A stretch of 64,000 bases of DNA, from assembly GCA_035048485.1 (NCBI GenBank), contig CM068590.1, positions 5,580,093-5,644,092 of the forward strand, given 5' to 3'. Shown here in pieces: positions 31,094 to 60,540 of the stretch. The position numbers were made by a program, and so were the translations under genes. This DNA is from Pteria penguin. Lineage: Eukaryota; Mollusca; Bivalvia; Pterioida; Pteriidae. The notes beneath the pieces are model-generated. The model had not been told where the DNA came from, ran no database searches, and was given only the letters and a program-made list of their open reading frames with translations. Position 1 is the stretch's first letter. Every line of letters starts with the position of its first letter.

Positions 31094-34000
31094 AAACATT
31101 CACACCTATAAATATTACAGAGCTGTCAATTCTATACGCAGAGGGTATTCTAAGATTAATAAGTGCAACGCCAAGAAATGTCTTAATTGCCATCATTCAA
31201 GCTGCAAGTACAGTATTGAATCTTCAGTTAATGGAAATAAAAATATCACTAAATTAGACAAAGACATAGATTGAAATACTGTCAATGTTATATATGTCAT
31301 CACTTGAGAAGCTAGAGGATGTGGGGCTCAATATGTCGGGGAAACGTTAAAACAATGTTTTCGGAATCATTCCTATAAAATTCGTAATAATTCACGATGT
31401 AAATACCAGAATTTTCTTTATAACCATTTTAATAAATACCAACATAATATTAACAATGTGAAAATAACTCCAGTAGTAAATTACCAGGTGATACGAAATC
31501 AGATGTTAAAAAACAACTTTTGGAAGCCGAACTCTACTGGATTAAACAACTACAAACCCTATACCCTCTCGGTCTCAACGATCAAATATATCGACAAGGT
31601 AATATTTCTTCTCATCAGAATAAGATCAATAGTTTTACATTAAGACATAATATTTTTTAGAAAACGTAATAGTTTAAATAGGTCATTAAACGATCTTCTA
31701 TTTATCGCAAAACTTAATGGCCGTCATGAACTTTTGCATGCACTATCCTCTATTCCGGTAAATAAATTGAAACCTACCGTGGACGAAGCTGATCTTCGAA
31801 ATTTACCCAATTCTGATTGATATAAATTCAAATTGATTTTTTTGTTTTCATATAAAAAACTCTTTCCTCGTATTCCGTCTCTTCCACCCATGCAGCAATT
31901 TCTCAAAATTAATTTTATTAATAAAGGCTTCGATCTACTTAACATTTCAAATATTTTCCGTGATCATAGAGTAACTTCTAAAATCCCCCAATATTTTGAG
32001 GATATAGAACCTCCACTTATTTGTTACCAGTACAAAAAGCCTATAAGAAATCTTATTTTAAATTATAATAAAGTTACATCTAACCCTAATATTTCAGACT
32101 TTTTTTTTCGTCGTGTTCTTGTGAAAATTCTAAATATTTTTATAAACCGGCAGGTCATTTTATTACTGGTGACCTAAACTGTATTTCGGACAAGAAATTG
32201 CGCACCCTTTTTGGAAAAGGACCTAAATATAGGTTACCGTCCAGGATAGATTTCAATAAATGCCGTGACGTTATAGAAGATGCTTCAACTACATATCGTA
32301 AACGTTGGTGTAAAAAAGAACAGGTAAAGGTTCATGCTCTTAATGGTTGGAAATACGAGATTTTAAGAATTGTCGATATCCGTATTAAGAACGGAAAATC
32401 CACATTTATTTCAACAGCCTAATACATTGATGGCAAATTCTATTAAAACGAGGATAGCTGATTTACATGCTAAATATGTCTTTGCTCCTGCTGATAAAGC
32501 AGGTAATAACATAATAGTTGTTTGAAAACTATATTATATTGAAGTACTTAAAACAGATTAAACTCCACTCATACATATGCGGAAAGCCCTACCTCAAAAG
32601 ACAGTACCTTGCACGATCACCTCATGACCATGTCCGACTTCAAAATTAAAACTGATAAATCTGATCTACCAACCATGTATTGGCTCCAAAAACTACATAA
32701 AAGTCCATATAAATCACGTTTCATATCTTATTCTAGCCACTGCTCTATTACGGTACTATCGAAACATATTACGTCTGCTCTAACTGCTATAAAAGATCAT
32801 ATTATTAAATATTGTGATGTTGCATTTCATAATAGTAACATCAATTACTTTTGGTCAATTAAAAATTCTCAGGAAGTTAAAGACAAACTTCTTTCACTAA
32901 ATTTCAAAGCGACTCAAATTTCTACTTTTGATTTTTCTACACTTTATTCATCTCTGCCTCATGATTTGATTAAAAGCAAGTTGCTGTCTCTTATACAAAG
33001 GTGTTTTTTACAGCGAATCTAAAACTTACATATGTACTGCCAATAACTCCGGATTCTTTTCCACAAACAATATACTTCATATAAATACTGGATTTGCAAG
33101 GAATTATGTAAAGCACTAGATTTTCTCATGAATAATATTTTTGTGCAATTTGATGGCAAGATATATCAACAAATAGTTGGGATTCCTATGGGTACTAACT
33201 GCTTGCCTCTGAGAGCAGATTTATTTCTTTATTGTTATGAGAGGGATTTTAAGGTTTCTATTCAAAAATCAAAACGTTTCGACCTCATTGACAAATTTAA
33301 TAATACTTGCAGATATCTGGATGACATTTTGGTTATCGACAACCCTGAATTTGAACAATTTATATCAGAAATATATCCACCAGAGCTCAAATTGGATAAA
33401 GCTAATACTTGGAGATAAATCTACACCTTTCTTAGATTGAACATCAAAATTATCAACCACCTAATATATACTAATATTTATGATAAACGTGAGGATTTTG
33501 GATTTTCTATTGTAAATTTTCCTTACTTGGATGGCGATGTCCCTCGACTCCCATCATATGGTATCTATATATCTCAATTAGTTCGATTTGTCAAAGGCTG
33601 CACCGATGTTTTGGACTTTCATAAACGAAATTTACAAATTACTACTAAACTTTTAACTGAGGGTTACAGATATCACAAATTAAGAAAAACATTCGGCAAA
33701 TTCTTCAGATCTTATTCAGAACTTTTATCTAAATTTGGAAATATTTCTTTTCAACACTATGTATCCAATGGTATTTCCTATCCTTATTTTTACAGTGATC
33801 TCGTACATAAACTAAGGAAAGTAAAGGGCTCAGATAACGTTATTTCATCTTGTAATAAAATAGTCAAACGTCTTCTAAACAGACAATATGACATTGAAGA
33901 TCATCAAAAAGACTCGTCCCCTCTGACTGTAAGTCGGGACTCCTACAGATCTAGGGTCTTAGCTCGCTTTCAGACTGGCAGAGCATGGTTTATCATGTTG

Positions 34001-34377
34001 ATGTCGCATATATTTTTATATCATTATGTGTTTTACAATACCTACGTGTTTATATTTTTATGACCTCTCAATATGCGATACCTGTTGACCCTTGTTCTTT
34101 ACATGGAGGATTATATATAAAATTTTAAATGTACGCCCCTTGATTGTTCTGCTGTTACGGTGAGTGGGAAGCTAGGCCCGTAAACCGGTTAACCACACCA
34201 TTTGTTTGGCTTTTGTCAAATTAAATGACCGTCCTAAGTCGGTATCGTAATTGTACTACAATTAAATATTTTTGTAATGTGTTATATGTACTAGGAAATT
34301 ATTTATATTCATGTATTGTATAGCTTCATGGTGACTTCTGCCACATAACTAAGCCAGTAACTCATCCTTTTTCTTTC
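31094..34377 (+). pseudogene. Naiad-like PLE copy A (N-terminal GIY-YIG, CxC, RT)
   Basis: Order on the + strand: Cys/His motif CNAKKCLNCHHSSC (31203 region), GIY-YIG nuclease NVIYVIT...GCGAQYVGET, a basic segment, the CxC linker CSC (codons 32114-32122), then RT: ADKAGNN, LPTMYWLQKLHK, TFDFSTLYSSLPH (motif A), GIPMGTNC (motif B), CRYLDDIL (motif C) and YLDGDVPRLPSYGIYIS. An endonuclease ahead of the RT with a CxC linker is the published signature of Naiad PLEs. In-frame TGAs at 31272, 31305, 31818 and 32523 are shared with copy B; frameshifts (about 31485, 32100 and 33410) are private. The edges are set by comparison with the unoccupied flank of gene D (44.6 kb). It is 5'-shorter than copy B. 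Confidence 0.88.
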
Positions 34378-34420
34378 AGATTAAGAGATAAAATTTGTGA
34401 TATAATGTTACATGGTGCAC

Positions 34421-35490
34421 TAAATTAAAAAGTATACATGTTCTATATTTATTATAACCAGTAGGCCGGTGTCACTGCTGGTGAACTGATAGTTCCCGAT
34501 GGCATCATAAGTCTAGTTTTCAGTGCTTTTGTACTGACATTAAATATATACTTTTCAGTATTCAAATTCAGTAAATCATTCTAAAACTAAGGAGTATCTC
34601 CCTCATGCATATCTCTGTCCTTAGATAGATTCTTTGGTTCACTTTTCAGTCATTTTGGTTTCAACACTGCTCTTCAAATATTTATATATTTTGAGAATCC
34701 CAATCATTTGGCCACGAGCATCATAGGAGAGACATAAGTTGTCGAAATGCGCATATGGTTTACTAAATTAAAAACTATATATGTTCTATACTTATTATAA
34801 CCACTAGGCAAGTGTCACTGCTGGTGGACTTATAGCCCCGATGGCATCATAAGTCTAGTTTTCAGTGCTTTTGTACTGACATTAAATATATACTTTTCAG
34901 TATTCAAATTCAGTAAATCATTCTAAAACTAAGGAGTATCTCCCTCATGCATAGCTCTGTCCTTAGATAGATTCTTTGGTTCACTTTTCAGTCATTTTGG
35001 TTTCAACTCTGCTCTTCAAATATTTATATATTTTGAGGATCCCAATCATTTGGCCACGAGCATCATAGGAGAGACATAAGTTGTCGAAATGCGCATATGG
35101 TTTACTAAATTAAAAACTATATATGTTCTATATTTATTATAACCACTAGACAAGTGTCACTGCTGGTGGACTTATAGCCCCGAGGGCATCACAAGTCTAG
35201 TTTTCAGTGCTTTTGTACTGACATTAAATATATACTTCAAATTTTCAGTATTCAAATTCAGTAAATCACTCTAAAACTAAGGAGTATCTCCCTCATGCAT
35301 AGCTCTGTCCTTAGATAGATTCTTTGGTTCACTTTTCGGTCATTTTAGTTTCAACACAGCTCTTCAAATATTAATATATTTTGAGAATTCCAATCATTTG
35401 GCCACGAGCATCACTAAAGAGACATAAGTTGTCGAAATGCGCAGACGGTGCACTAAATTAAAAAGTATATATGTTCTATATTTATTACAG
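34421..35490 (+). repeat. R340 tandem array: three ~343-bp units
   Basis: Units start at about 34421, 34764 and 35106 and end near 35454 (periods 343, 342, 348). Each contains GTCACTGCTGGTG, AGTCTAGTTTTCAGTGCTTT, GGAGTATCTCCCTCATGCAT and TTGTCGAAATGCGCA. Solo copies are at 3740-4085 and 37375-37720. The array lies about 120 bp upstream of gene C's start codon. Confidence 0.9.
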
Positions 35491-35608
35491 AAGTAGCAAC
35501 GAATCTTTGAATTATGTTATTCATTGTTTGCTGTGTACAATAGTAAATAATTACGAATAAATAAGTTCAATATTTCAGGTTGTAATACAAGTTGAATTAA
35601 AACAGAAA

Positions 35609-35678
35609 ATGACACCGAAACCAATGCAATCGATTGGGGTAACAGTAATTCTTGTGATGATTTTTCTGAGAAGTACAA
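35609..35678 (+). CDS. Gene C exon 1: signal peptide
   Basis: ATG at 35609 with A at -3; encodes MTPKPMQSIG, then core VTVILVMIFL and RST; donor GTAAGA in phase 1. Same length and opening as gene D exon 1, which supports the start. Confidence 0.85.
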
Positions 35679-36439
35679 GTAAGATTTTTCGTTAAATTAC
35701 AAATAAGACAATAATTGTAGTAAGATAATAATTTGTCTACCTACCGTTACAGTAAAGATGTATAAAGGTCTTTAGCCTAGATGAATCGGTAAACTGAGTT
35801 TTGGGATTAAAAACAAAAAGACAAACAAACCAACAAAAAGCAAACAAGGTCTGGAAATTCTCCTTCGTAGCCACTAGAGGATACATTGCACACACTATAT
35901 TTTGTAACATTTACTGTTCGCAATTTCGACAGCTGCTTTCGTATTTTACATTAAATATTTTTCAAAATAACAATAATCATAATAATTAGTTTCTTTCGTA
36001 TTCAACGATTTTATTGTATATGTAATCAGCAAATAAAAGGTCATTAACAAAGGTTTAGGTTTTATATCAGTTCTGCGACAAATAAATTGATTCTGAATTT
36101 ATGTCGTCATTAGTTAATTTGTCACTCTTGTTAGAAATCAATATACCCAAGTACAGGAAATACATGTTTAACTGGAACTACATTTTTGTTATGATTATCA
36201 ACTCATATTTATGGAAATTTATTCATATTGGCGTCAGAGAATTTACTGGCTATTGTAGAAGATGCTGGGCTTTATAATTGACAATATATATGTTGTATTC
36301 GGTAACCAAGAAACCATCGATATTCCTATTGCTGCTAATAGTGCATCCATACTCTATACGCGGTGTTCTTTCATTAGATAGAAGCTGAATTTATATAACA
36401 CATTATGTGTTATCATAAAAAAACAACTGGTAAAAAGCT

Positions 36440-36740
36440 TTTGTTTATCATTCAGATTTATGGATGATATATTGTATATAAACAATGAAAATCGTGATAT
36501 GTACACACAGTATACCAAAACTCGAAATTTAAAATACAACAGTATACACTCCCGCACTTCTACTGAATGATGACCAAAATGGTATCTTACCACTACACTC
36601 TATGATGAACGTGAAGACTTCAATTTCCCTGTTAAAATTTCCATATACGTATGGCAATATTCCTTTATGACCTCTGTATGCTGTCTATATATCTCAATTG
36701 GTTCCATATACGAGAGCTTCTTTATAATACGTTTCTTTAA
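36440..36740 (+). pseudogene. PLE RT relic (third variant, PLE-3)
   Basis: Encodes FRFMDDILYINNEN and, after a shift, YDEREDFNFPV and an ISQLV-like end, aligning with the YxDD and thumb motifs of the other PLEs here but distinct from PLE-2. Intronic to gene C. A related piece is at 46215-46400. Confidence 0.6.
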
Positions 36741-37374
36741 TTTACCGATACAGGCTACTGAGTGAAATGACAAAGTGATAGAAGAATGTTCACATTTTTC
36801 TATACAATGTGCGTATCTACATACAAAAGTCGCTAAAAATTGCACTGCTGCATGACTCCAGTCTCGCGATATATACAATAATCCATAAAAGGCTTGGTGG
36901 ACTTATTTCAGTCGTTAATCTTCGTAATATGTGACGTTAGAAGTTGTACCAATGCTACTTTTCCTTAGGTTTTAATTTTGACGTGAATGTTTGCATTGTG
37001 ATGTCACAGTAAAATGACGTTAAAAGTTGTACAGCAAGTTGTACAGGCGGCCTGTATTTTACTCTGGGTTTCCCGCAAGATCGGGCAAATGGATATTTTC
37101 AGATATCTCACAGAGAAATACTAAAGCAGAGGGAACACTAATTTTTATGAATTAGGATTTTAGGAAAATACAAAATCTCCCAGCATTCTAATAGCACTTT
37201 AATATCACAAGTTTACGATAAACCACGTTTTAAGTCTATGTTATGTAAATTTTACAGTCGATATAAAGGCCTTTTTGTGCTTATCAGAAAAGATTCTGAT
37301 ATTCTGACTTGTTTTTATCTATTTACTTGTGTTCCTTGTTAAACCATTTATACCTGGAAAATACAATATTACAC

Positions 37375-37720
37375 ATTTTACTTTGTCACTGCTGGTGGAC
37401 TGATAGTGCTGGAGGACAAAATAAGTCTAGTTTTCAGTACTTTTGCACTGACGGTCTATTTTTCAGTACTTTTATAATGACATGAATTATATACTTAAAA
37501 TTTTCAGTCATAAAATTTTGGAAATCACTAAAATTAAGGAATATCTTCCTAATGTATAGCGCTGTTCTTATATCTATTCTTTGGTTTACTTTTTCGGTCA
37601 TTTTAGTTTCAACACTGCTCTTCAAATATTTATATGTTATGAGAATTCCAATCATTCTGCCTTGAGCATCACTGAAGAGTCATAAGTTGTCCAAATGCAC
37701 AAAATTTAAAGGTATATATA
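37375..37720 (+). repeat. R340 solo copy in gene C intron 1
   Basis: CACTGCTGGTGGACTGATAG, AGTCTAGTTTTCAGTACTTT, ACACTGCTCTTCAAATATTT and AGTTGTCCAAATGCA match the tandem units, with more divergence. Confidence 0.8.
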
Positions 37721-38036
37721 TAAGGAGTAAGACTAGGTTATCGTTACCACCTCATTTGATTACGAGTTATACTACCTCAAATCACAATATAACATTGCAG
37801 TGTGGCCGGTTAACATGCGACATATATTCCTTTATGGCATCTGAACTTATCCCTGGTTTTTTCCGTAATAGGCAATATCTCTATTTTCTAGTGTAAGGGA
37901 TGTTGCTTATCGACTATTTGCCGGTCTATTAGTACTTTACTGTAGCTACTACTGTGATGCTTTTGTTGTTAGTGCCATATTCATGTGACACCATTCGTAA
38001 TTTACTTTACTGTAGTAATCTTTGTTTCATTTTCAG

Positions 38037-38184
38037 GAGGAAATAATTTTGCGTTTGTGGATTGTGAAAAAACTTATGACGATGCCAACGCAATGTGTGA
38101 GAAGTTTGGTTTTATACTAGCAAGAGTAAACAATATGTATATCTTGAGTGAAATAGTGCAAATGGTGCAACAGGAAGTTCGTGG
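38037..38184 (+). CDS. Gene C exon 2: CTLD N-terminal half
   Basis: Acceptor TTTCAG. Encodes [19 protein letters not shown] and FILARVNN. I place the donor at GTGCGT (38185), which gives the phase 2 needed by exon 3; an upstream GTTCGT would break the frame. It is two codons longer than gene B's exon and has an extra Cys (VDC). Confidence 0.82.
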
Positions 38185-38405
38185 GTGCGTTTGATAATCA
38201 ATATAAATTTAACGTTCCTATACAATTCTATATATTCATATATATTACTTGTATTTATAAGATTTTTGTCCAAAGACGCGATCTTGAAATCCTTTATGTG
38301 TGTGTGTGTGTGGGGGGGGGGGGTTAATTGTGTGTGTTCCTTTGATTTGTTAGGGGGATTTATTTGATTTTGGTGGTGGGGGTTATTTCTTCTTTCTCCT
38401 TTGTT

Positions 38406-38568
<163 letters not shown>

Positions 38569-39276
38569 ACTACAAAACAAAGTAAAATAAATACATTATG
38601 AATGTAGCCAATGCTGTCAGTATAGCAATGAAATCATCGGACTCTGTTCTTATACACCAGAGTCAGAGGAAGTTCGTTCTTTCTGATTTTTTTACTCAGT
38701 TGCAAACATCTATACTCCTTCCCTTATGTCATTCTGTCATTTCGTAAAACGCTCTTCTTTTATCATTATATTTTTGGTATCTTTAAATCTTAGGGAATTG
38801 GAACTAAAAATAATTTTTGATGGACTTTTTCATCCAAAAGTAAAACAAGCATTTTATATTCTGCATACTTACTTTCAAGACATAATTTATTTCAGTAAAT
38901 CTTACGGTACCTTGTTTAATCTACTTTGATTTATTAGTTGATCGATTCACTGATTAATTGATCGAGTTGTTAACCGATTCATTCATTCGTGAACGAAGCA
39001 TTATTCTATGCTGTATTGCTGTATACTGTTTGCTAAATGTGCATATCAAGCAGCGATGCGTTTGTATGGCATCAGATATGAATGCTTACTGTCTCATCGT
39101 TCAAACTTTTGGAGGATTTGAAACCGGAATCTATCAGATTGTTGATCGAACCTTGAACCACTCAGTCATCAAATTATGATAGTTATTTACTATCAAAATG
39201 GCCACACATGTAATGTTGTTGCTCAAGGCATATCTTCATTGAACACATTTAAACATTCGATTATTTTCTTTTTCAG

Positions 39277-39479
39277 TGCAGAGTTTTGGATAGGGATGCG
39301 CCTTAATACCTCTGATTTGCCTAACTTTACTTATGTGTATGAAACGGGAGAACCAGCATATTTCACTGCGTGGGCAGATAAGGAACCAAATAACCAAGAC
39401 TCTGATCAATGCGTGAGGATACAAAACGGGGAGTTTAAAACAATAGGCTGTACCAGGAAGTACTACTTCATGTGTCAAA
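39277..39479 (+). CDS. Gene C exon 3: CTLD C-terminal half
   Basis: Acceptor TTTCAG, donor GTATGT, 203 bases like gene B. Encodes EFWIGMRL, YETGEPAYFTAW, KEPNNQDSDQCVRI and YYFMCQ. EPN is present; the WND site is FKT. Confidence 0.88.
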
Positions 39480-40091
39480 GTATGTATATGTTTATAGAAA
39501 TGTTATCGACTACGATTCACAGTTTTATTGACCATAAAACCGAGCATAATGAGCAAATAATATGTAACAATATTGTTTAACAAAATATACAAAGAAGGGC
39601 AGTGTATCCAGCTATATGTATAATATTTGTTCTAATGACACTTTCTATACAGTAGATTTATTGGTAAATAATGGGTCAGAATTTTGACGGGACAGTAAAA
39701 ACCAAACTACTATGCCACGGAAAAACCATCAGTTCTTTGGGCATATCTGTATTAAACTTCTGCGCAGTGCACGTTGCCGTTACCGTATATGTCAATATCA
39801 TCTTGGACTGACTAGAAGCAACAAACAATTTTATAAACATGTATGCAGCGCTTGATTATTTCGAAGTCTGTTTTGTCTAGATTATTTATAGCTGATATGG
39901 TATTCCTTCTTCCACGACATCAGTTTATCATTCTGCTTTCAGTGGGGATATGTGTCCACCACAATGACTCCGCACTGGTTTTTTTTTTTACTTTTTGACA
40001 ATGAAGGCCCTGTTTACAATACCTTCTATAACAATTCAGACTCTTACTTTTGAAACTGAAAAACAAAATTAAACTTTTTTTTCTGTTTTAG

Positions 40092-40483
40092 AGATAACAG
40101 AAGAATTAACCACTGCAGACTCATTTGGTATTACATCTGTTTCTTCACTTCCCTCAGTCTATTTTCATACAACATCGCACGGTGACGATGACACTATGGA
40201 TGCGACATTGTTCACCACCGCTTACCATAACACGGGAATACCTACAAGAGATAAGGCATTATCTTCCCTGGAAAAAAGATTGGAAAATATTCGAAGTAAC
40301 TTAACCATCGACAAATCATCGCTGACCTTGAACAAAATGCGACTCGTCTGTGCCACTGACGATCGTACCTCCTCCTATTCCATAGGCATGGTTGGTGCCG
40401 CCATCATTTTCATTGTCATAGCTATTATAATTATTGGTGATGTGCTGAAACTGCTACTCTGGTGGAAACAGAATTGGCGTTAA
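40092..40483 (+). CDS. Gene C exon 4: stalk, membrane span, tail
   Basis: Acceptor TTTTAG, TAA stop. Stalk with SVSSLPSV and TTSHGDDD, then LEKRLENIRSNLTIDK, RLVCATDDRTSSYS, span and tail. 392 bases, as in gene B. Confidence 0.9.
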
Positions 40484-40589
40484 AAGAAATGTGCCTCATA
40501 CATTAAATTCTTGTATGACGACTACAGAGATAATGTCAAGTGTTTGAACAAAATGATAAGACGAAATAATGATAATTTTTCTCTGATTT

Positions 40590-44783: not shown

Positions 44784-44853
44784 ATGACACCAAAACCAAT
44801 GCATGCGATAGAGGTAGCATTTATCTTTGTGATGAATTTCCAGAGAAGTAAAG
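44784..44853 (+). CDS. Gene D exon 1: signal peptide
   Basis: ATG at 44784 after an A-run; MTPKPMHAIEVAFIFVMNFQ then RSK; donor GTAAGA in phase 1. The hydrophobic core (VAFIFVM) is shorter than gene C's. Confidence 0.82.
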
Positions 44854-46400: not shown

Positions 46401-46401
46401 T

Positions 46402-47505
46402 TGAGATAAATCTACACCTTTCTTCGATTTAAACATCAAAATTATCAACCACCTAATATATAATAATATTTATGATAAACGTGAGGATTTTGGATTTCCT
46501 ATTGTAAATTTCCCTTACTTGGATGGCGATGTCCCTCAACTCCCATCATACGGTATCTATATATCTCAATTAGTTCGATTTGTCAGAGGCTGCACCGATG
46601 TTTTGGACTTTCATAAACGAAATTTACAAATTACTACTAAACTTATAACTCAGGGTTACAGATATCACAAGCTAAGAAAAACATTCGGCAAATTCTTCAG
46701 ATCTTATTCAGAACTTCTATCTAAATTTGGAAATATTTCTTTTCAACAGTATGTATCCAATGGAATATCCCATCCTAATTTTTACGGTGATCTCGTATAT
46801 AAACTAAGGAAAGTAAAAGGCTCCGATAACGTTATTTTATCATGTAATAAAATAGTCAAACGTCTTCTAAATAGACTATATGATAATGAGATCATCAAAA
46901 AGACTACAGGTCTTGTATTTGACCCCTCTACAGCCTTATGCAGACTTTTACTTGAACGTTGCACGCTGACTAACAGGGCGGTGGGCACTATATGACGGGC
47001 CTTGTCCAAACCTTTTTCAGAGGAGACATGGTCCTGAACCTCGTCCCCTCTGACTGTTAGTAGGGACTCCTACAGATTTAGGGTCTTAGCTCGCTTTCAG
47101 ACTGGCAGAGCACGGTTTATCAAGTTGATGTCGCATATATTTTTATACCATTATGTGTTTTACAATACCTTACGTGTTTATATTTTTATGACCTCTCAAT
47201 ATGCGATACCTGTTGACCATTGTTCTTTACATGGAGGATTATTTATAAATTTTTAAATGTACGTCCTTTGATTGTTCTGCTGTTACGGTGAGTAGGAAGC
47301 TGGGCCCGTAAACCGGTTAACCACACCATTTGTTTGGCTTTTGTCAAATTAAATGACCGTCCTAAGTCGGTATCGTAATTGCACTACAATGAAATAGTTT
47401 TGTAATGTGTTATATGTTCTAGTATATTATTTATATTCATGTATTGTATAGCTCCATGGTGACTTCTGCCACATAACTGAGTCAGTAACTCCTCTTTTTT
47501 CTTTC
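46402..47505 (+). pseudogene. Naiad-like PLE copy C (3' part)
   Basis: 5'-truncated within the RT thumb. It continues DLNIKIINH, YLDGDVPQLPSYGIYIS, FHKRNLQITTKL and KLRKTFGKFFRSYSELL, about 90% or more identical to copy A by eye, to a 3' end ending CTTTC. In-frame TGAs at 46993 and 47035 are conserved in copy B at 52473 and 52431, with open frame between and after them. In gene D intron 1. Confidence 0.85.
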
Positions 47506-47871: not shown

Positions 47872-47934
47872 GTAAGTTAAGTAGTGCTTAGCGCATTGTA
47901 TCAAATTTGACCTTCCTGTATAATGTATATATTC

Positions 47935-48110
47935 GACGTTTGTTACTTTAATTGACTGTTCTAAGTCGGTATCGTAACTGCAGTACAATCGAATAATGTA
48001 ATGTTTTGTTCTGTGTTTATTTTCACTATCATCAAGTTTTATGTGTTGATAAATGTCATACAACTTGGGCAGATGTCTTCCGTTCTCTTTTGTAATGGAT
48101 TTATAGTTAT
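47935..48110 (-). mobile_element. PLE-2 tail fragment in gene D intron 2
   Basis: 'TCTAAGTCGGTATCGTAACT' and CAGATGTCTTCCGTTCTCT match the 51.03-51.16 kb tail; the - strand reads YDTDLEQSIKVTNV, cf. GYDTDLGRSVEVTNV at 6.75 kb. Confidence 0.6.
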
Positions 48111-48549: not shown

Positions 48550-48604
48550 CATGTTTTTTCATTTATGGAATAAAGTTATGGGTGAATTTTATGGTTTTTT
48601 TCAG

Positions 48605-48804
48605 TTCCGAGTTTTGGATAGGAATGCGCCTATTGGATACATCTTATCCTCCACATTATATTTATGAAACTGGGGAACCAGCCAATTATGCTGTTTGGGC
48701 ACGAGGTGAACCAAATGACAAGGACACTGATCGATGCGTTAGGATAAAAGATGGAGCTTTCAAAACAATGAAATGCAACAGAGACTACTCCTTCATGTGT
48801 CAAA
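48605..48804 (+). CDS. Gene D exon 3: CTLD C-terminal half
   Basis: Acceptor TTTCAG. Encodes EFWIGMRL, YETGEPANYAVW, GEPNDKDTDRCVRI and YSFMCQ. The donor is GTTCTT, poor compared with GTACGT and GTATGT in the paralogues. Confidence 0.87.
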
Positions 48805-49611
48805 GTTCTTGTCTATTAATTATAACTACTTTTAGAGCCACATCTTTATTGATATAAGATACGGGCACATTTAAGCATTTTTAACAATAGTATTGTACAA
48901 TAAGAATCCAATTTTATCCAACCCCCCCCCCCCCCCCAAAAAAAAAAAACCAACCAAACATGATTAAAAGAACGTTTAAAAATAATAAGAAAAGTGTCTT
49001 CATAAGCTCCTGATCTCTTTGTTAAGGTGGGCATTAGGCAGTATTTGTAGTATGTGTAAATGAAGGTTTTGGTTTTCATGTAAATCTACAATTTTAAGGT
49101 TATTTTTTATCAATTTAGTTTTTTATAATAATTACAATTTGGAAAACCAAGTAAAAAGGTATTTGTTAGTCTCGTTAAGGAAAACTTGAAGAAATAAAAA
49201 CAACAGTCAAATATATTCGAGCCCTTAAACTTTATCAAGTCGAATTTTACATCGACAAGGTTAGGAAAGTCCTGTGTCTGCCAGCGATATACCTTGGTAC
49301 CAGTAAAACCGAAATGACTATAGTGTATCGGCATCTACTATGCAGGTTTCTTGTCTTTCGTTTTAGACAAAAACATAAAAAAAAAACTAAAAACAACAAC
49401 AACAACAACAACAAAAAACCCAAAACAAATAAAAAACCAAAAAAAAAAAAAAAACCACTCGAAGATCCATTCCAAGGTAGAATTGGTCCGTAAATATCCA
49501 TTAATGCTTCTAGTGTGTCCGCTGCGCATATTACTTTTCTCATTCTATCTCATTAGACTTTTGACATCATCACATATAAGTCTGAACTAACTAAATGTAT
49601 TTTTATCGTAG
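48805..49611. other. Gene D intron 3
   Basis: Contains a C17/A11 run (about 48921-48949) and an A-rich (ACA)n/(AAC)n stretch (about 49373-49457). No gene. Confidence 0.6.
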
Positions 49612-50015
49612 AGATTAAAGAGGAGCTGACCTATTTACAGACTACAAACTCAACGACAACTACATCTGGTCCTGCCTTTTATACAATACCTCGAGACACA
49701 ACAACATATGGCAACGATGTCACGACACATGAAAGACCATCTACTTCTTTCACTTATGCCACAAGGAAACCTACAAATAATCAAACGATTCCTTTGCTGG
49801 AAAAAAGATTGGAAGATATTAGAAACATCTTAACCATCGATAAAAAATCGTTAACCCTAACTCAAATGCGGCTGGTCTGCGCTACGGACAATCGTACCTC
49901 CTCCTACTCCATAGGCATGATGGGTTCCTCCATTATTATCATAGTAATGTCTATGCTGATTATTGGAGATGTTCTGAAAGTGCTTCTCTGGATAAAAGAG
50001 AATGTCGTTTACTAA
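49612..50015 (+). CDS. Gene D exon 4: stalk, membrane span, tail
   Basis: Acceptor CGTAG, TAA stop at 50013-50015. Thr-rich stalk, then LEKRLEDIRNILTIDK, RLVCATDNRTSSYS, span and tail. 404 bases, four codons longer than genes B and C. Confidence 0.9.
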
Positions 50016-50949
50016 TAAACTGGTGGTTTAATAGTGAAATGAATAATCAAGGTTGATAATGAGTAGTGATTGATATTTTGGTTACTTATGTACTTCTTTT
50101 CTTATTTGCTGTTGACTATTCGAGCAGGAAATACTTTTCTCGCGAACATTAAATCAACATATTAGCCAAGGAGAGATGTCAGTAAGAGGCTTCATCTACT
50201 AAGAGCAAGATACACAGTGTTGGTAGCAAAAGCAAAAGAGGAGAGAAATACTGCGTTCAAATGTGTAATTTGTAATGTGCTTACTCCCAATCATATCATG
50301 GTATATATGATCTATATTTTTTTATATTGATAATCATTTTCGTTTAGTGTAAAAGTTCAAATATATTCTACTTCAATAACAAATGGCTAATTTTGCATCA
50401 GTATAAGTTTTATAACTGTGTATTTGATGTCTATAAAAAAATTGCATTGTACCATTAATATTACTTTTCTTCTTCTTCTTCTTATTATTATTATTATTAT
50501 TATGGAATTGTCGTCGCCATATGGGTGAAATATACCCGGCGCGTTGTAAAACAATAATATATCTATCTATCTATCTTTTATAGAATGTTATATTCACTGC
50601 ATAACACTCAAATATTTTTGTTATGTTATTTTTTTGCTTATTATAATTAATAGTTTTTATCAATATGGCATATTTTTTCATACGACTGAATTTGATGTGT
50701 TCTTCCTTTCTTGTTGATTCGCATACTGAAATGTGATTGCAAGCTATTAAACGAGCATGTTCCTGCCAAGAGGGACCATCCGCACGCATTGGCCAACGAA
50801 AGCATCATAAAAAAATTCCTCGGCAACAAACTCAGTCTAAGGACTTATAAGATATAAAGCTGTTATATAAGTATTTACAGGTGTAGCTGTTTTACTTTCA
50901 TTTTCAATAAAAGTAAAATGTTGTGAGACTTAAAGTTCCACCAGTTCGC
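50016..50949. other. Gene D downstream flank
   Basis: AT-rich with a (TTC)n(TTA)n tract at about 50466-50503. An AATAAA overlaps the stop codon; no clearer polyadenylation signal seen. Confidence 0.4.
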
Positions 50950-51210
50950 TTTTATTCTTATAAAGTGGGTAGGTGGGCGCTAGTAAACCGGTTCACCACA
51001 ACAATTGAGTGACGTTTGTTACTTCAATTGACCATCCTAAGTCGGTATCGTAACCGCAGCACAATCGAATACTTTTGTAATGACGTTCCTTGTATATCCT
51101 TGTATGTGTGCAGGTCCTTGGTGATTTGTACAGCTTTGTCAGATGTCTTCTGTTTTCTATTTCATAACCCACAGATGTACTGTTTGTAATATATGCCCTA
51201 AAATTCACAC
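50950..51210 (-). mobile_element. PLE-2 tail fragment
   Basis: Contains GTAAACCGGTTCACCACAAC and CCTAAGTCGGTATCGTAACC. The - strand reads ERHYKS, LCCGYDTDLG and IEVTNVTQ, homologous in sense to the end of the PLE-2 frame at 6.71-6.80 kb. Confidence 0.7.
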
Positions 51211-51962: not shown

Positions 51963-54553
51963 GAAAGAAAAAAGAGGAGTTACTGGCTCAGTTATGTGGC
52001 AGAAGTCACGATGGAGCTATACAATACATGAATATAAATAATATACTAGCACATATAACACATTACAAAAATATTTCATTGTAGTACAAATACGATACCG
52101 ACTTAGGACGGTTATTTAATTTGACAAAAGCCAAACAAATGGTGTGGTTAACCGGTTTACGGACCCAGCTTCCCACTCACCGTAACAGCAGAACAATCAA
52201 AGGACGTACATTTAAAAATTTATAAATAATCCTCCATGTAAAAAACAAGGGTCAACAGGTATCGCATATAGAGAGGTCATAAAAATATAAACACGTAAGG
52301 TATTGTAAAACACATAATGATATAAAAATATATGCGACATCAACATGATAAACCATGCTCTGCCAGTCTGAAAGAGAGCTAAGACCCTAGATCTGTAGGA
52401 GTCCCGGCTAACAGTCAGAGGGGACGAGGTTCAGGACCATGTCTCCTCTAAAAGAGGTTTGGACAAGGTCTGTCATATAGTCCCCACCGCCCTGTTAGTC
52501 AGCGTGCAACGTTCAAATAAAAGTCTGCATAAGGCTGTAGAGGGGCCAAATACAGGACTTACAGTCTTTTTGATGATCTTAATGTCATATTGTCTATTCA
52601 GGAGACGTTTGACTAATTTCTTTCATGATAAAATAACGTTGTCGGAGCCTTTTACTTTCCTTAGTTTATATACGAGATCACCGTAAAAATTAGGATGGGA
52701 AATTCCATTGGATACATAATGTTGAAAAGAAATATTTCCAAATTTAGATAGCAGTTCTGAAGAATTTGCCGAATGTTTTTCTTAGCTTGTGATATTTGTA
52801 ACCCTGAGTCAAAAGTTTAGTAGTAATTTGTAAATTTCGTTTATGAAAGTCCAAAACATCGGTGCAGCCTCCGACAAATCGAACTAATTGAGATATATAG
52901 ATACCATATGATGGGAGTCGAGGGACATCGCCATCCAAGTAAGGAACATTTACAATAGGAAATCCAAAATCCTCACGTTTATCATAAATATTAGTATATA
53001 TTAGGTGGTTGATAATTTTGATGTTCAAATCTAAGAAAGGTGTAGATTTATCTCAAGTATTAGCTTTATTCAATGTGAGCTCTGGTGGATATATTTGTGA
53101 TATAAATTGTTCGAGTAAATAAAGAATTCAGGGTTGGCGATAACCAAAATATCATCCAGATATCTGCAGGTATTATTAAATTTGTCAATGAGGCCAAAAC
53201 GTTTTGACTTTTCAATAGAAACCATAAAATCCCTCTCATAACAATAAAGAAATAAATCTGCTATCAGAGGCGCGCAGTTAGTACCCATAGGAACCCCAAC
53301 TATTTGTTGATATATCTTGCTATAAAATTGCACAAAAATATTATTCATGAGAAAATCTAGTGCTTTACATAATTCTTTGTAAGTCCAGTACTTATATGAA
53401 GTATATTGCTTGTTGGAAAAGAATCCGGAGTTATTGGAAGTAGATATGTAAGTTTTAGATTCTCTGTGAAAACACCATTGTATAAGAGACAACAACTTGG
53501 TCCTAATCGAATCATGAGGTAGAGATGTATAAAGTTTAGAAAAATCAAATGCAAAAATTTAGTGAAAGAAGTGTGTGTCTATAACTTCATCAGAATTTTT
53601 AATTGACCAAAAGTAATTGATGTTACTATTATGAAATGCGACATCACGATATTTGATGTGATCTTTTATAGCAGTTAGAGCAGACGTAATATGCTTCGAT
53701 AGTACCGTAGTAGAGCAGTGGCTAGAATTATAGAATTAGATATGAAACGTGATTTATATGGACTTTTATGTAGTATTGGCAGCCAATACATGGTTGGTAG
53801 ATCAGATTTATCAGTTGTAATTTTGAAGTCGGATATGGTCATGAGGTGATCGTGCAAGATGCTCTCTTTTGAGGTAGGGCTTTCCACATGTGTATGAGTA
53901 GAGTTTAATTCGTTTTTAACCACTTCAGTATAATATCGTTTTCAAACAACTATTATGTTATTACCTGCTTTATCAGCAGGAACAAAGACATATTTAGCAT
54001 GTAAGTCAGCTATCTTCTTTTTAATAGAATTTGCCGTCAATGTATTAGGCTGTTGAAATAAATGCGGATTTTCCGTAAAGTTCTTAATACGGATATCGAC
54101 AATTCTTTAATACTCGTATTTCCAATCATTAAGAGCATGAACCTTTTCCTGTTGTTTTTTACACCAACGTTTACAATATGTAGTTGAAGCATCTTCTATA
54201 ACGTCACGGCATTTATTGAAATATATCATATGAAATATATATGGACGGTAACCTATATTAAGGTCCTTTTCCGAAAAGGGTACGCAATTTCTTGTGCGAA
54301 ATACAGTTTAGGTCACCAGTAATAACATGACCTGCCGGTTTATAAACATATTTAGAATGTTCACAAGAACACGACGAAGTAATAGAGTCTGAAACATTAG
54401 GGTTAGATGCAACTTTATCATAATTTAAAATAAGATTTCTTATAGGAGTTTTGTACTGGTAACAAATAACTGGAGGTTCTAAATTCTGAAAATATTGGGG
54501 GATTTTAGATGTGACTCTGTCATCACGGAAAATATTAGAAATGTTAAGTAGAT
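51963..54553 (-). pseudogene. Naiad-like PLE copy B, 3' portion
   Basis: Continues (- strand) from 59377 after the LTR element. CxC linker CSC (54363-54371), YKPAGHVITGDLNC, ADKAGNNIIVV, LPTMYW, GVPMGTNCAPL, CRYLDDILVI and YLDGDVPRLPSYGIYIS. It keeps the catalytic YLDD. In-frame TGAs at 53942 (at a position that is Cys in PLE-2), 53053, 52473 and 52431. Private damage includes a TAA at about 54258 and frameshifts near 53730 and 53520. The 3' end (- strand) is CCTC...CTTTC at 51963. Confidence 0.88.
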
Positions 54554-54725
54554 TGTAATGGTTCTTGTGGTTAGGATGCTGACAAACTCTGAGGGATCCA
54601 GTTTTATAAACACGAGGACACTTAGTGGCGGCAATACTTCTTTTTATTATTCTGACTGTGTGCATGTTCAAGCATACTGTATAACAGACATTTCAACATA
54701 AAACAATTCGTGTTATATTATAACA
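54554..54725 (-). repeat. LTR (3' LTR of the gypsy element)
   Basis: 172 bp, beginning TGTAATGG and ending ATAACA on the + strand. It differs from the other LTR by a handful of substitutions and small indels (about 95% identity by eye), so the insertion is not very recent. Confidence 0.93.
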
Positions 54726-54736
54726 TCTCCCTTTAT
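54726..54736 (-). other. Polypurine tract
   Basis: AAAGGGAGA on the - strand immediately before the 3' LTR, the expected plus-strand primer. Confidence 0.75.
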
Positions 54737-55029
54737 TATAAAATGTGAATGAAATTTACATTTTGAAATAATACCCTTATAATTCAAACAATATGATAAT
54801 GTGTATTACGCCAATTGATTTTTTGAACAAACTGAACATGTAGTTAATCATTGAATAAATTGAGATTAACAAATCAAGTGTTTTTAGTGTTCTCGATTCA
54901 CTATGGAGTGTCTGTAATTTTTCTGCAATAAAGAAATAACATGGTAAACAAACATTAACTGATTAAGTGAAATCATATTGATAAGCTTATCTAGCTTCCA
55001 AGTATAATTAGTGTTGCATGAAATTTGTT
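54737..55029. other. 3' non-coding part of the gypsy element
   Basis: AT-rich stretch between the end of pol and the polypurine tract; no frame. Confidence 0.6.
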
Positions 55030-56208
55030 AAAGATCAAGTTTCTTAGGTGCCTTAATAACTCGGCCTGATCTTGTAATATAGGTTTCTGAAGGGTTAGAA
55101 ATAGGTGGTGCAGGATTTTCTACTGAGCAATCGGTAACTGGAGGGGTAGCATCAATGGGTTGATTAGAAATATTAGTAATTGGGGCATTACTTGTCTGGG
55201 GGTTATCTAGGCATTGAATGTTGGGGGTGTAATTGGTAACCTTATCCCTTGAGCCAATATGACGGTTGTTTCTGCGATACATTGCACCATCTTTGGTTTG
55301 TACAGTACATGACCTTTCAATATTTGAGGTAACAACAATAGCAGGGGTCCATTTCTTGGAATCTTGGAGTGTATTTGGACTCTAACAGGGTCTCCGGATT
55401 TCAAGGGTGGAGATGACCTTGAAGAGCTGTCAAACAAAGTTTTAGATTTGACCTTGTTTTTAAAGATAGAACTATGTACAACATGATGGTCTATGACTTG
55501 GGGTTTCAAAACAGAAGGTAGGGTGGGAAGGTTAGTCCTTAATCTTCTTGACATGAGCAACTGAGAAGGGGAAAAACCAAAGCTAAGGGGTGTCATACGA
55601 TATGCTAAAATAGACATAAAGGGGTTTTGTCCATCATCCCTGAATTTAGTTAGGAGTCTTTTGACAGTCTGTACTGTCCTTTCTGCTAAGCCATTGCTTT
55701 GGGGGTATTTGGGACTAGAGGTGATATGAGTGAAGTTCCATTCCTTTGCAAATTTTTGAAATTCTGAACTAGCGTATTGGGGTCCATTATCAGATACAAC
55801 TCTTTCGGGTATTCCGTATCTGGAGAATGTTTCTTGTAACTTAGAAATGATATTGTGACTTGTGGTGTTTTGTAATTTGAAAATTTCAAACCAACGACTG
55901 TAATAATCAACAATCAAGATATAATCATGTTCATTCCAATGGAAAAGAGCAGTGGCGACCACTTGCATAGGGTAATCTGGTATATCATGTGGTTTCAGGG
56001 GTTCCTTGGGTTTAGAATTCCTATTGGTAAGGCAAGTATTACATGAGAGTATGATGTCCTTGACCTGCTGAGTGATACCTGGCCAAAATACAGTATCACG
56101 AGCCTTACCTAATGATCTTTCAATTCCTGGGTGTCCTGTATGAAGAATATTAAGCAACTTGGGGCGGAGAGAAACTGGAATAAAAATGCGTTGACCTTTC
56201 ATGACAAT
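55030..56208 (-). pseudogene. int: Integrase
   Basis: Zinc-binding HTGHPG...CNTC (HHCC), core with VDYYSRW, VVSDNGPQY and SNGLAERTVQ: the second Asp and the Glu of the DDE triad are present, but the first reads TALFHW where a D is usual. After KIPRNGP (about 55355) the frame shifts: the C-terminal region (YRRNNRHIGS, TRSGRVIKAPKKLDL) runs in another frame to 55030. Integrates the cDNA by family; this copy is inactive. Confidence 0.9.
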
Positions 56209-57630
56209 TTAATCAATAACAGACAACTCTTCTCTAAAATTCCAAAATTCTTTAACAATGTGGGGACATTGAGAAAATGAGTCTGGCCAACCATTAAGGA
56301 TAATACTAGAGAAAGCAGCAAGCTGAGGGTCATTCATGGTTTCGGTTCGAATCTCTTCTAATCGGATATTGCTTATAGGTAGGCTAGTAGTTACCATATG
56401 GACTTGTGCGTCAAGATCGCAGGACAATGAGGGTAATGTGCCAGGTAAGAAATTTCTGGACAAAGTGTCCGCGACAGGTATGTCTTTGCCTGGAACATGA
56501 ACTAATTTGAGATTATACTTTTGAAGTAAGAGTATCATTTGCTGTAATCTAGCAGGTGCGGAGTGAATAGATTTCTGCATGATAGCGACTAGGGGTTTAT
56601 GGTCTGTCTGTACAATGATGTCTTTACCATAAATATATTGGTGAAAGTGTCGACAGCCAAAAACAATTGCATACATTTCTTTCTCAATTTGTGCGTAATT
56701 GATTTCTATTTGAGTAAGTGCCTTTGAGGCATATGATACAGGCTTTCCTTCCTGTAGGAGAGTAGCTCCAAGCCCATGCTTTGATGCATCTACTTGTAAT
56801 GTGATTTCCTTCTTGGGGTCAAAGTACATGAGTACAGGGCCTGGTGACCTTGTGAGTATGGCCTTGACCTTATTTAAAGCTTCCTCTTGGGGTGAATCCC
56901 AGATAAATACAGACTTTGATGATAGTAACTGTCTCATGCGGGAGGTTACTTCAGAGAGATTTGTGGCAAATTTTGTAAGGTATGTTATCATGCCTAAGAG
57001 GGTCTCTAACTCACTACGATTGGTTGGCGAGTGCATTTCTTCTATCGCTCTGACATTTTTAGGGTCTGGTTTGAGACTTCGATTAGAAATTATGTGATCA
57101 AAATATGCCACTTCAGTTTGGCCTACATCAAGCTTTTCGTAGTTCAGCTTGATACCACGTTCTCTAGAGCGCTGGAGAGTAGTAAGAAGGTTAAGATCGT
57201 GCTCCTCTCTTGTCTTACCATAAATCAAGAGGTCGTCAACGAGAGCTCCAACACCTGGTAGGTCATTGAAACATTCGTCCATTTTACGTTGGAACTCATC
57301 TTGAGATGACTTTAAACCAAAAGGTAATCTCAGAAATCTATATCGGCCATAAGGGGTATTGAAAGTGGTAAGAAAACTTGAGTCTTCAGTAAGCTTGAGG
57401 GTCCAATATCCGCTACGCGCATCCAACTTTGTGAAGTATTTTGCTTCAGACAGTTGGGGTAACACATCATTAAGTGTTTTCATGGGGTAATGTGGTCGAC
57501 GGATAGCCTTATTTAGGTCTCGAGGGTCCAAACATATGCGTAAGGAGCCATTTGGCTTTTCAACTGTGACAAGCGAGTTTACACATGGTGTAGGGGTTTC
57601 AACCTTAGTGATAACCTTAAGTTCCTCCAT
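56209..57630 (-). pseudogene. pol: Reverse transcriptase and RNase H
   Basis: From MEELKVITKVETPTP: EKPNGSLRICLDPRDLN, YFTKLDARSGYW (motif A), LPFGLKSS, ALVDDLLIYG (catalytic VDD), then RNase H with LQVDASKHGLGA, KEMYAIVFGC and VQTDHKPL (D, E, D acids present). The frame is open until TAA at 56209-56211, after which the integrase continues in the same frame, so the stop is a point break inside pol. By family this is reverse transcription in the capsid. The bases upstream of MEELK in this frame are the other side of the inversion, not native coding sequence. Confidence 0.93.
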
Positions 57631-57636
57631 CCTATC

Positions 57637-58131
57637 CGGGTATGGAGGCTCCCCTATAAAATCTGTTGGTATATGTACTCTGAATGTTAATTGCAAAGGT
57701 CAAACGGTAGACACAGAGTTTCATGTTGTTGAAAGTAATGTAAGAGGTAGGAAACCACCCCCTATTCTTGGTCTTAAGTCATGTCTTGATCTTGGTCTTG
57801 TCAAGTTTATAGACTCAGTAAATTAAAAACCCTCTAACCAGAAACCCCTTGAGAAAGATTCTATCTTGAAAGAGTACAAGGATGTATTCACAGGTATTGG
57901 TTTGTTCCCAGGTGAGGTAAACATTGATTTGGACCCTTCCATTCAGCCAGTCATTCACCCCCCTCGCCGTGTACCCCATGTGATATCTGAGAAATTAAAA
58001 GTAGAACTTGATAGGTGAAAGGACGAACGAAGCGCTGTGACATCAGTCTTAACTTTGTCATATACATCAATAGGCAATACGTTCACTTGCGAACCAGTAT
58101 CAAGTTTACAATCTAGTTTACAATCTGATAT
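57637..58131. pseudogene. pro: Protease / RT N-terminus, partly inverted
   Basis: The - strand part (58016-58131) has the aspartic protease active site LDTGSQVNVLP. The next segment, 57637-58009, is flipped: on the + strand it reads YGGSPIKSVG, PILGLKSCLDLG (protease flap/C-terminal ILG) and EYKDVFTGIG, PPRRVPH (RT lead-in). A 6-bp inverted repeat CCTATC/GATAGG (57631-57636, 58010-58015) marks the breakpoints. A short tandem duplication (CKLDCKLD) precedes the active site. Confidence 0.88.
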
Positions 58132-59175
58132 TTACAAAGTGACAAAAGCTTCATTATTTTTAACATAGTTGCTAGAAATACAATCTATAAAGAAATAATT
58201 TCCATCTGAATGTACAGGTAAGTGATAGCTATGATTAACAATATGTGACTGATTTACACTTGACATTTGACATGTGACATTCATCATTTTCATGATCATC
58301 ATACACATATGATTCTTCACAAATTTCACTGACATTATGACTTCTACACATTTTTGCAAAATGATTATAACATTTACACTTGCTACACTGCTTTCCTCTG
58401 GCAGGACACGGTGCACTACGTGTGTGCGAAAAACCACAACTTCCACATATTCTTTGACTTGAATTGCCTTTCTGGTTATTTGGTTCCTCTTTCTTAGGAG
58501 TTGCGCGATCACCCGGATTTTGACTAGCGGAACTGTTAGCAGCTCGTCCTCTGCCACGTCATGATGTATTACCACGCCTACGGGGTCTTGTACGTAGTGT
58601 ACTTCCTGTTGAGGTTGCGATATAGCCGTTGCAGGTGTACCCATAGTTTTGAGTTGTTGTTGCGAGAACTCGAAGTTTTGAGCAATTTGGATACATTTAG
58701 TCAGTGTCAAACTTGCGCCTTCATTTATCAGCTTCTCCCTTACTTTAGCAGAGTTGGTGTCAAATACAATCCTGTCTCTGATCATTTCATCTTCGGCTGC
58801 GCCAAATGCACAATCCTTGGCTAGCAATCTAAGTTTTGTAACGTATTGTTCTATAGGATTAGCATTCTGGACTTCATTGTTGAATTTATAACGTGAGAAT
58901 ACTGGGTTCTGTTTCGGCTCAACGTATTCTTTGAATTTATTGTAATGGGTAGTTAGTGACTTACTTTCTTCTTCGGTGAGTGTCCATGTATTAAAGACAT
59001 CTCTTCCTTTTATGCCAACCCATAGAAGTAGGTAATTAATTTTCTCCTCTTCGTTTTTGCCAGCGAGTGGCCCGCCAAAAATGAGATCGACATGTTGATG
59101 GAATATTTTCCAAGCTTCTGGCAGATTGTCTGCCTCCCAATCCATGATTGGTTGAGGTATCCCGGTCAGATTCAT
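58132..59175 (-). pseudogene. gag: gag region (frameshifted)
   Basis: Opens MNLTGIPQPIMDWEADNLPE with a capsid-like core (EEKINYLLLWVG, QNPVFSRYKF, YVTKLRLLAKDC) through about 200 residues. From about 58.59 kb the frame runs out of phase: the nucleocapsid zinc knuckles (CGSCGFSH, then CSKCKCYNHFAKMC) lie in another frame at about 58330-58440, with a TGA upstream. The last 40 codons return to the protease frame and stop at TAA 58132. Capsid assembly role by family. The frameshift is most simply a mutation; the second frame change could reflect native gag-pro frameshifting. Confidence 0.85.
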
Positions 59176-59197
59176 GTTTATCTACTTGAAAATTTAT

Positions 59198-59208
59198 TTC
59201 TGACACCA
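59198..59208 (-). other. Primer-binding site
   Basis: The - strand reads TGGTGTCAGAA directly after the 5' LTR: TGG pairs with tRNA CCA, and the sequence suits a Leu-type tRNA 3' end (by analogy with other Ty3/gypsy elements). Confidence 0.75.
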
Positions 59209-59376
59209 TGTAATGGTTCTTGTGGTTAGGATGCTGACAAACTCTGATTCAGTTTAATAAACATGAGGACACTTAGTGGCGGCATTACTTCTTTTTATTA
59301 TTCTGACTGTACGCATGTTCAAGCATACTGTATAACAGACATTTCAACATAAAACAATTCGTGTTATATTATAACA
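59209..59376 (-). repeat. LTR (5' LTR of the gypsy element)
   Basis: 168 bp partner of the LTR at 54554. On the - strand it contains AATAAA (within AATAATAAAAAG), a likely polyadenylation signal. Confidence 0.93.
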
Positions 59377-60540
59377 TAGATCGAAGCCTTTATTAATGAA
59401 TTTAATTTTGAGAAATTGCTGCTTGGGTGGAAGAGACGGAATACGAGGAAAGAGTTTATTATATGAAACTAAAATAATCAATTTGAGTTTATATCAATCA
59501 GAATTGCGTAAACTTCGAAGATCAGCTTCGTCCAGGATAGGTTTCAATTTATTTACCGGAATAGAGGATAGTGCATGCAATAGTTCATGACGGCCATTAT
59601 TTTTTGCGATAAATAGAAGATGGTTTAATGACCTATTTAAACGATTACGTTTTCTGATGTTACGATTACGGCGACGACCATGTGACTTACGTTTTCTAAT
59701 AGTATTATGTCTTAATGTAAAAATATTTATCTTACTCTGACGAGAAGAAATATTACCTTGTCGATATATTTGGTCGTTGAGACCGAGAGAATATGGGGTT
59801 TGTAGTTGTTTAATCCAGCAGAGCTCGGCTTCCAAAAGTCGTTTTTTAACATCTGATTTCGTATCACCTGGTAATTTAGAGATATTTTCTACTGAAGTTA
59901 TTTTCACATTGTTAATATTATGTTGGTATTTATTAAAGTGGTTATAAAGAAAATTCTGGTATTTACGTCGTGAATTATGAGGAATTTTATAGGAATGATT
60001 CCGAAAACGTTGTTTCAAAGTTTGAGAAGTTTCCCCGACATATTGAGCCCCACATCCTCTAGCTTCTCAAGTGATGACATATATAACATTGGCAGTATTT
60101 CAATCTATGTCTTTGTCTAAGTTGATGTTATATGTATTTCCATTAATTGAAGATTCAATATTGGACTTGCAGCTTAAATGATGGCAAGTAAGACTTTCTT
60201 GGCGTTGCATTTATTAATCTTAGAATACCCTCTGCGTATAGAATTAACAGCTCTGTAAGAATTTATAGATGTGAATGTTTTTTGAAAATGAGATAGAACG
60301 TTTAATAGGGAAACTACTTGTAAGTGGAAAAATATGAACTTTAGTGGTGCCGATTAATTTTCTACAAGAAATACCAGGTATATGAAGAGTGGACACAGAG
60401 GGCAATCTAAGTGGTGTGATTATAACTTCAGGAGATTTGTATTTCAATTTTATTATATTTAAAGCCATTTTAATGAAAAGGGGGGATAAGGATGTACAAA
60501 CCCAGGGGAAAGCTCCCACACAACCAAGTCAGTAACTATT
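59377..60540 (-). pseudogene. Naiad-like PLE copy B, 5' portion (GIY-YIG nuclease)
   Basis: On the - strand from about 60.52 kb: a 5' extension with LSPLFIKMALNIIKLKY, a Cys-rich segment, NVIYVIT, the YIG-side GCGAQYVGET, RFRNHSYKI, then a basic region (KRKSHGRRRNRNIRKRN). In-frame TGAs at 60100, 60067 and 59494 match copy A. It extends about 260 bp further 5' than copy A and ends in a short sequence (60513-60538) that is an inverted copy of its own 3' end. Confidence 0.85.

Follow-up and report, generated by a model that had tools for sequence, protein, structure and literature searches.

A 64,000-nucleotide stretch of the genome of the bivalve Pteria penguin (NCBI GenBank assembly GCA_035048485.1, contig CM068590.1, positions 5,580,093 to 5,644,092 of the forward strand; hereafter the window) contains three copies, A, B and C, of a Naiad-like Penelope-like element (PLE), and the family they represent was named N1. 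N1 is very probably (probability about 0.9) a Naiad-type PLE that encodes a five-selenocysteine endonuclease-reverse transcriptase and uses as its stop a UGA in the core of its own selenocysteine insertion sequence (SECIS) element. The presence of selenocysteine (Sec) at the in-frame TGA codons is strongly supported by the SECIS, by the coding constraint that persists past the TGAs and by a sister family, N2. In the proposed organization, a single open reading frame (ORF) would encode an N-terminal GIY-YIG-like endonuclease, a CxC linker and then a reverse transcriptase (RT), and five UGAs would be read as Sec under one SECIS that the same mRNA carries at its 3' end.

Shared TGA codons and the SECIS element of N1

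The assembly containing the window (838,482,794 bases) was searched at the DNA level with the endonuclease region of copy A. This gave 1258 first-look candidates, a loose count that may overlap with that of N2. The 40 best-scoring candidates included the window copy; the 39 others were fetched, oriented by BLAST against copy B and aligned with A, B and C in 42 rows. For copies split into several BLAST pieces the best piece alone was aligned, and such rows are therefore partial. Codons were numbered from the ATG of one fetched copy, L022 (MASNIIK...).

Five in-frame TGAs, at codons 123, 134, 325, 562 and 858, are shared by the copies (Table 1). An earlier, sequence-only reading of the window had listed six pairs of TGAs in A, B and C as candidate Sec codons of a Naiad-like PLE, and all six are found where it placed them, its numbers for copy B being the lowest base of each codon. 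The first four pairs (31272, 31305, 31818 and 32523 in copy A) are in frame in all comparable copies, apart from one AGA at 31818, and coding similarity continues on both sides of each in A and B. The last two pairs, at 46993 and 47035 in C and at 52473 and 52431 in B, were rejected as Sec codons, as these UGAs form part of the SECIS quartet. The fifth site, codon 858, had been missed; in copy A its TGA is split by a G inserted at about position 33409. A further TGA at 52623-52625 was also rejected as a Sec site and taken as decay, since it is private to copy B.

The remaining stops are scattered. Between codons 1 and 1054, TAA occupies 26 cells of the alignment in 24 columns, TAG 9 cells in 9 columns and TGA, outside the five shared sites, 12 cells in 9 columns. 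In the full-frame tally no column has TAA in more than two copies or TAG in more than one, which agrees with the earlier remark that TAAs are private to single copies. If shared stops were drawn like this private mix (TGA in 12 of 47 cells), the probability that all five would be TGA is about 0.001. The alignment of many genomic copies, which had been proposed as a check, thus gave TGA retained at the putative Sec codons and neither TAA nor TAG in more than two copies of any column.

Only when TGA is taken as sense do six fetched copies out of 39 (L010, L018, L019, L020, L022 and L030) show open frames of 1056-1225 codons, and the same five TGAs occur in each. Five of these copies are open all the way from the ATG to the SECIS UGA (1051-1054 codons); the sixth, L020, changes frame shortly before that UGA. 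Extra TGAs are found once inside the ORF in L018, once after the frameshift in L020 and once upstream of the ATG in both L022 and L030.

The SECIS was detected with the Rfam model SECIS_1. In the window no match was found at E up to 1 outside the N1 copies B and C, and there was none in the tail of copy A (33900-34420). A search of the conserved 3' tail (34080-34377 in copy A and its counterparts) had been suggested; a SECIS does occur in B, C and other copies, but just upstream of that tail, at the end of the ORF. At the gathering threshold, 20 of the 54 fetched loci were searched, of which 16 had matches at or above it (18 matches in total), with scores of 35.5-40.8 bits in N1 and of 45.9 (L050) and 42.1 bits (L051) in N2. 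No match at this threshold was obtained in L012, L013, L017 and L030, and in L011 the match is located in an adjoining partial copy, the core of the full copy being mutated. The core AUGA/AA/UGA lies on the same strand as the TGAs and downstream of them in both TGA-bearing families. Folded as single strands, six examples formed a long hairpin with the core unpaired, as expected, the apical helix being absent in L051.

Table 1. Positions of the N1 copies, their SECIS elements and the TGA codons discussed in the text, in coordinates of the window.
Feature	Position (strand)	Position in second copy (strand)	Remarks
Copy A of N1 (Naiad-like PLE)	31094..34377 (+)		Decayed, SECIS deleted; self-BLAST and alignment
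Copy B of N1	51963..60280 (-)		Interrupted by nested LTR element 54554-59377; self-BLAST and alignment
Copy C of N1	46401..47505 (+)		5'-truncated, SECIS present; self-BLAST and alignment
Putative Sec codon 1 (family codon 123)	A 31272..31274 (+)	B 60100-60102 (-)	TGA in 36/36 comparable rows
Putative Sec codon 2 (family codon 134)	A 31305..31307 (+)	B 60067-60069 (-)	TGA in 36/36 comparable rows
Putative Sec codon 3 (family codon 325)	A 31818..31820 (+)	B 59494-59496 (-)	TGA in 35/36 (one AGA)
Putative Sec codon 4 (family codon 562)	A 32523..32525 (+)	B 53942-53944 (-)	TGA in 39/39
Putative Sec codon 5 (family codon 858)	B 53053..53055 (-)	C 46402-46404 (+)	TGA in 35/35 readable rows; 7 rows with indel
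SECIS of copy C	46982..47047 (+)		Rfam SECIS_1, 29.8 bits, E 0.082, under gathering score of 35
SECIS of copy B	52421..52484 (-)		Rfam SECIS_1, 33.2 bits, E 0.0096, under gathering score of 35
UGA of SECIS AUGA core (family codon 1055), proposed N1 stop	C 46993..46995 (+)	B 52473-52475 (-)	
UGA on 3' side of SECIS quartet	C 47035..47037 (+)	B 52431-52433 (-)	Not a Sec codon
Deletion junction in copy A, SECIS lost	33912..33913 (+)		About 136 bp relative to B and C; alignment
Private TGA of copy B	52623..52625 (-)		TGT in A and C

Sister family N2 and residues in other relatives

The N1 sample consists of the best-scoring copies among the 1258 candidates and is therefore young, with a median p-distance of 2.5% among the 28 longest copies, so that a TGA common to them reveals no more than the state of their source element. 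The copies had been described as independent; there are indeed several of them, but they are young and come from one source, and the older, independent evidence for TGA retention is provided by N2. This family was found through a fragment located beside L018 and gave 5119 first-look candidates (again a loose count), of which 41 rows were listed. The N2 material that was read comprises loci L049-L051, the upstream pieces L052-L054 and fragments in L013, L019, L021, L040 and L048, with 72-76% DNA identity to N1 in the main matches. The comparison covers sites 325, 562 and 858, as the N2 reads begin downstream of 123 and 134. N2 has TGA at codon 325 in one copy (L050/L053) and at codon 562 in two copies (L050 and L051).

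Ratios of nonsynonymous to synonymous substitution rates (dN/dS) were calculated by the Nei-Gojobori method for L022 of N1 against single N2 copies. They were 0.14 for codons 174-324 (L053), 0.10 for codons 326-561 (L050; two short pieces, of 22 and 30 codons, gave 0.21 and 0.07, respectively), 0.07-0.14 for codons 563-857 (four copies) and 0.11-0.14 for codons 859-1050 (four copies; the decayed L040 gave 0.25). The dS values in the ORF, from 0.84 to 2.5 and mostly 1.0-1.6, are near saturation and thus imprecise. Both families carry the TGAs at 325 and 562, and the sequence beyond these codons is under protein-level constraint, an argument for their translation.

These data bear on a rival view in which the shared TGAs are inherited damage: the source element would have been dead, with five nonsense TGAs, and an active relative would have amplified it in trans. 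The youth and single source of the N1 copies are in line with such an origin, and several of the fetched copies are truncated or broken. However, the shared stops are all TGA and never TAA or TAG, the TGAs at 325 and 562 also occur in N2 with dN/dS about 0.1 on both sides, and a SECIS is found in both families. The N1/N2 comparison already disfavours this explanation, which we consider very improbable.

More distant relatives were also compared. PLE-2 is represented by pieces in the window (11299-11319, minus strand) and in L025, L038 and L015; these are of the Cys type with long frames and offer a natural control without Sec from within this genome. The protein of L025 is 39% identical to that of N1 over the aligned part. 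The sequence-only reading had aligned TGA 32523 with a Cys of PLE-2 and TGA 31305 with the Cys of a PLE nuclease fragment (VVYGIRC, 28441-28461), and both pairings were recovered, as Cys is present at 562 in L025 and, in an alignment by eye, at 134 in the fragment. In the relatives compared, TGA thus stands opposite Cys at these two sites but not at 325, 858 and 123. Sec would accordingly occupy a Cys position at two sites and face other residues of the available relatives at three.

Could the TGAs be read by another route, such as a near-cognate tRNA or programmed readthrough, with an incidental SECIS-like hairpin? The Glu, Ser/Thr and Gly residues that relatives carry at three of the sites would be compatible with it. 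On the other hand, above-threshold SECIS matches with the AUGA/AA/UGA core accompany both TGA-bearing families, the window matches at E up to 1 are confined to copies B and C, and in PLE-2, which carries Cys at 562, the 695 codons read of L025 are free of in-frame TGAs, although PLE-2 is a weak SECIS-free control because the 3' ends of its pieces were not established. Such a route appears scarcely plausible, slightly less so even than amplification of a dead source.

The family assignment of N1 is based on motifs, domain order and copy arrangement. The endonuclease motif NVIYVIT-U-EARGCGAQYVGET at codons 127-147 is GIY/YIG-like by eye, and PMGTNCAPL and YLDDIL are found at about codons 783-831; we take the former to be the motif of that name and the latter two to be RT motifs. 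A piece of copy B matched Pfam RVT_1 with an E value of 3.7e-5, below the Pfam cut-off. Copy B, L018 and L030 have SSCSC as their CxC linker (codons 422-426), and L022 has CSF. In L011, L022, L032 and L036, the 3' part of a copy lies directly upstream of a full copy, a tandem arrangement resembling that of pseudo-long terminal repeats (pLTRs). The single-sequence fold of the copy B endonuclease was uninformative (predicted local distance difference test score of 38), the PDB search gave weak matches alone (best E 0.07, taken as chance), and scans of IMG/VR and of one GTDB contig confirmed no relatives. The order of endonuclease, CxC linker and RT, the tandem copies and the RT motifs fit a Naiad-type PLE.

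Several observations weigh against the Sec reading of N1. The sample is drawn from the top of the candidate list and is young, as mentioned above, and both SECIS_1 scores in the window are under the Rfam cut-off. Covariation in the SECIS (12 rows) was not above that of shuffled alignments, the element being too conserved for the test; one covarying pair was seen (UA in 4 rows, AU in 2, unpaired in 6). No GIY-YIG Pfam match was obtained with the endonuclease part of copy B or with the whole L022 protein. The residues of PLE-2 at 325 and 858 are Glu and Thr, respectively, that of the PLE nuclease fragment at 123 is Gly in a gapless hand comparison, and N2 has Ser at 858 (TCC in L049, L050 and L051, TCT in L048), with CCC in L019. 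These residues indicate that Sec at 325, 858 and 123 does not simply replace a conserved Cys, and Sec at 858 looks like a gain of N1. The proposal that the Naiad-like element uses Sec nevertheless held with the SECIS, the constraint past the TGAs and N2 behind it, with the loss of two of the six codons originally named.

The end of the ORF

Codon 1055, the UGA of the AUGA core, is TGA in 29 of 33 N1 rows. The N1 SECIS would begin within the last coding codons, and its core would supply the UGA stop of the ORF. The meaning of a UGA would then be set by its position, Sec far upstream of the SECIS and stop inside it, and a ribosome standing at the UGA inside the SECIS would itself melt the hairpin. 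From the sequence we infer the actual insertion of Sec, termination at the SECIS UGA and this mechanism of termination. A minimum spacing of 51 nt between UGA and SECIS for Sec insertion is cited in PMC3737529; on that figure, Sec at the SECIS's own UGA would be disfavoured, which fits termination there.

Alternatively, the ORF may run past the 5' UGA of the SECIS, either for about 86 codons to a shared TAA in N1, as the sequence-only reading had implied, or in a shifted frame in N2. Beyond the SECIS, the frame of N1 stays open as far as this TAA, which 33 of 33 readable rows have. The N2 SECIS UGA aligns to codon 1055, and the upstream coding frame reaches it in only two of five N2-type copies, L013, which has an internal deletion, and L040, in which the SECIS core is altered. 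Some observations count against a stop in the SECIS: the four other N1 rows have TAA (two), CGA (one) and TGG (one) at codon 1055; L050, L051 and L021 are shifted by nearby indels and miss this UGA in their upstream coding frame, which in L050 and L051 runs over the first UGA to end at the 3' UGA of the SECIS and in L021 passes through in the third frame; and third codon positions past the SECIS show a mild excess of differences (0.20-0.29 versus 0.13-0.16) in four of five N2 comparisons, the exception being L049.

Against a coding extension, N2 copies carry TGA, TAA and TAG past the SECIS in the N1 extension frame. Between N1 and N2, dS past the SECIS (codons 1073-1141) is 0.27-0.40, compared to about 1-1.6 in the ORF, and dN/dS is 0.35-0.59. 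In four of the five comparisons the frame is lost through net indels (the remaining one, L049, mixes two overlapping matches), and the UGA inside the SECIS is under the minimum spacing cited in PMC3737529. The extension was therefore rejected on its weaker coding signal, the N2 stops and the frame-breaking indels, and kept as a rival that we judge unlikely. On balance, the stretch past the SECIS appears to be a conserved untranslated tail. A SECIS-embedded stop is well supported by these comparisons for N1, while for N2 the picture they give is mixed.

Neighbouring sequences, known systems and significance

A 3' tail block, about 70-82% alike, is found in N1, in N2 and in otherwise different fragments (34054-34300, 47182-47430, 52286-52040, 2472-2720, 6800-6610, 50930-51158 and 47900-48088); it is perhaps a shared tail module for RT recognition. 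The retroelement nested in copy B (54554-59377, minus strand) is bounded by direct repeats, each about 170 bp long (54554-54726 and 59209-59377, 94% identical), which are long terminal repeats (LTRs), and contains ORFs at 58132-59181, 56209-57699 and 55207-56208 that are gag-like and pol-like by eye. Elsewhere in the window there are three similar gene pieces (24229-25809, 39146-40502 and 48596-50015) with a hydrophobic, probably membrane-spanning segment by eye, one of which has a C-type lectin match at 39146-39580 (Pfam Lectin_C, E 5.1e-8), and a gene piece with a von Willebrand factor A domain (8182-8835; Pfam VWA, E 2.4e-14).

Craig et al. (2021, Mol Biol Evol 38:5005) are said to have described multi-selenocysteine Naiad PLEs in clams and spiders. 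Our searches of the available literature turned up no paper on Sec in Naiads; multi-Sec Naiads are reportedly known already, and the unusual feature of N1 would be the overlap of stop and SECIS. The clam and spider elements are reported to resemble N1 in the N-terminal endonuclease, the CxC linker, the RT, the tandem or pLTR copies, the several in-frame UGAs and the SECIS, a likeness drawn from description and not letter by letter. Selenoprotein P, a multi-Sec eukaryotic selenoprotein, likewise relies on a 3' SECIS structure for the several UGAs of its single ORF. Human Selenoprotein P has two SECIS elements. N1 differs in having five putative Sec codons, against the 10 Sec of the human protein (PMC3737529), and in the single SECIS detected, whose core overlaps the stop proposed for N1.

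We regard as evenly poised the fuller proposal that UGA has two meanings in N1, five as Sec and a sixth, in the AUGA core, as stop, with one RNA structure both licensing readthrough and ending the ORF, and that Sec was added where the sister family has Ser instead of being a mere swap for Cys. An annotation that treats every TGA as a stop would call such copies pseudogenes. If the Sec reading of N1 is true, the mobility of a retrotransposon would be tied to the selenium supply and to the Sec machinery of the host. The first-look candidates of N1 (1258) and N2 (5119), loose and possibly overlapping as these counts are, would form a natural series of gains and losses of Sec codons, which could show whether Sec helps the reverse transcriptase or the endonuclease, and N1 may serve as a case for how one mRNA separates UGA as Sec from UGA as stop.

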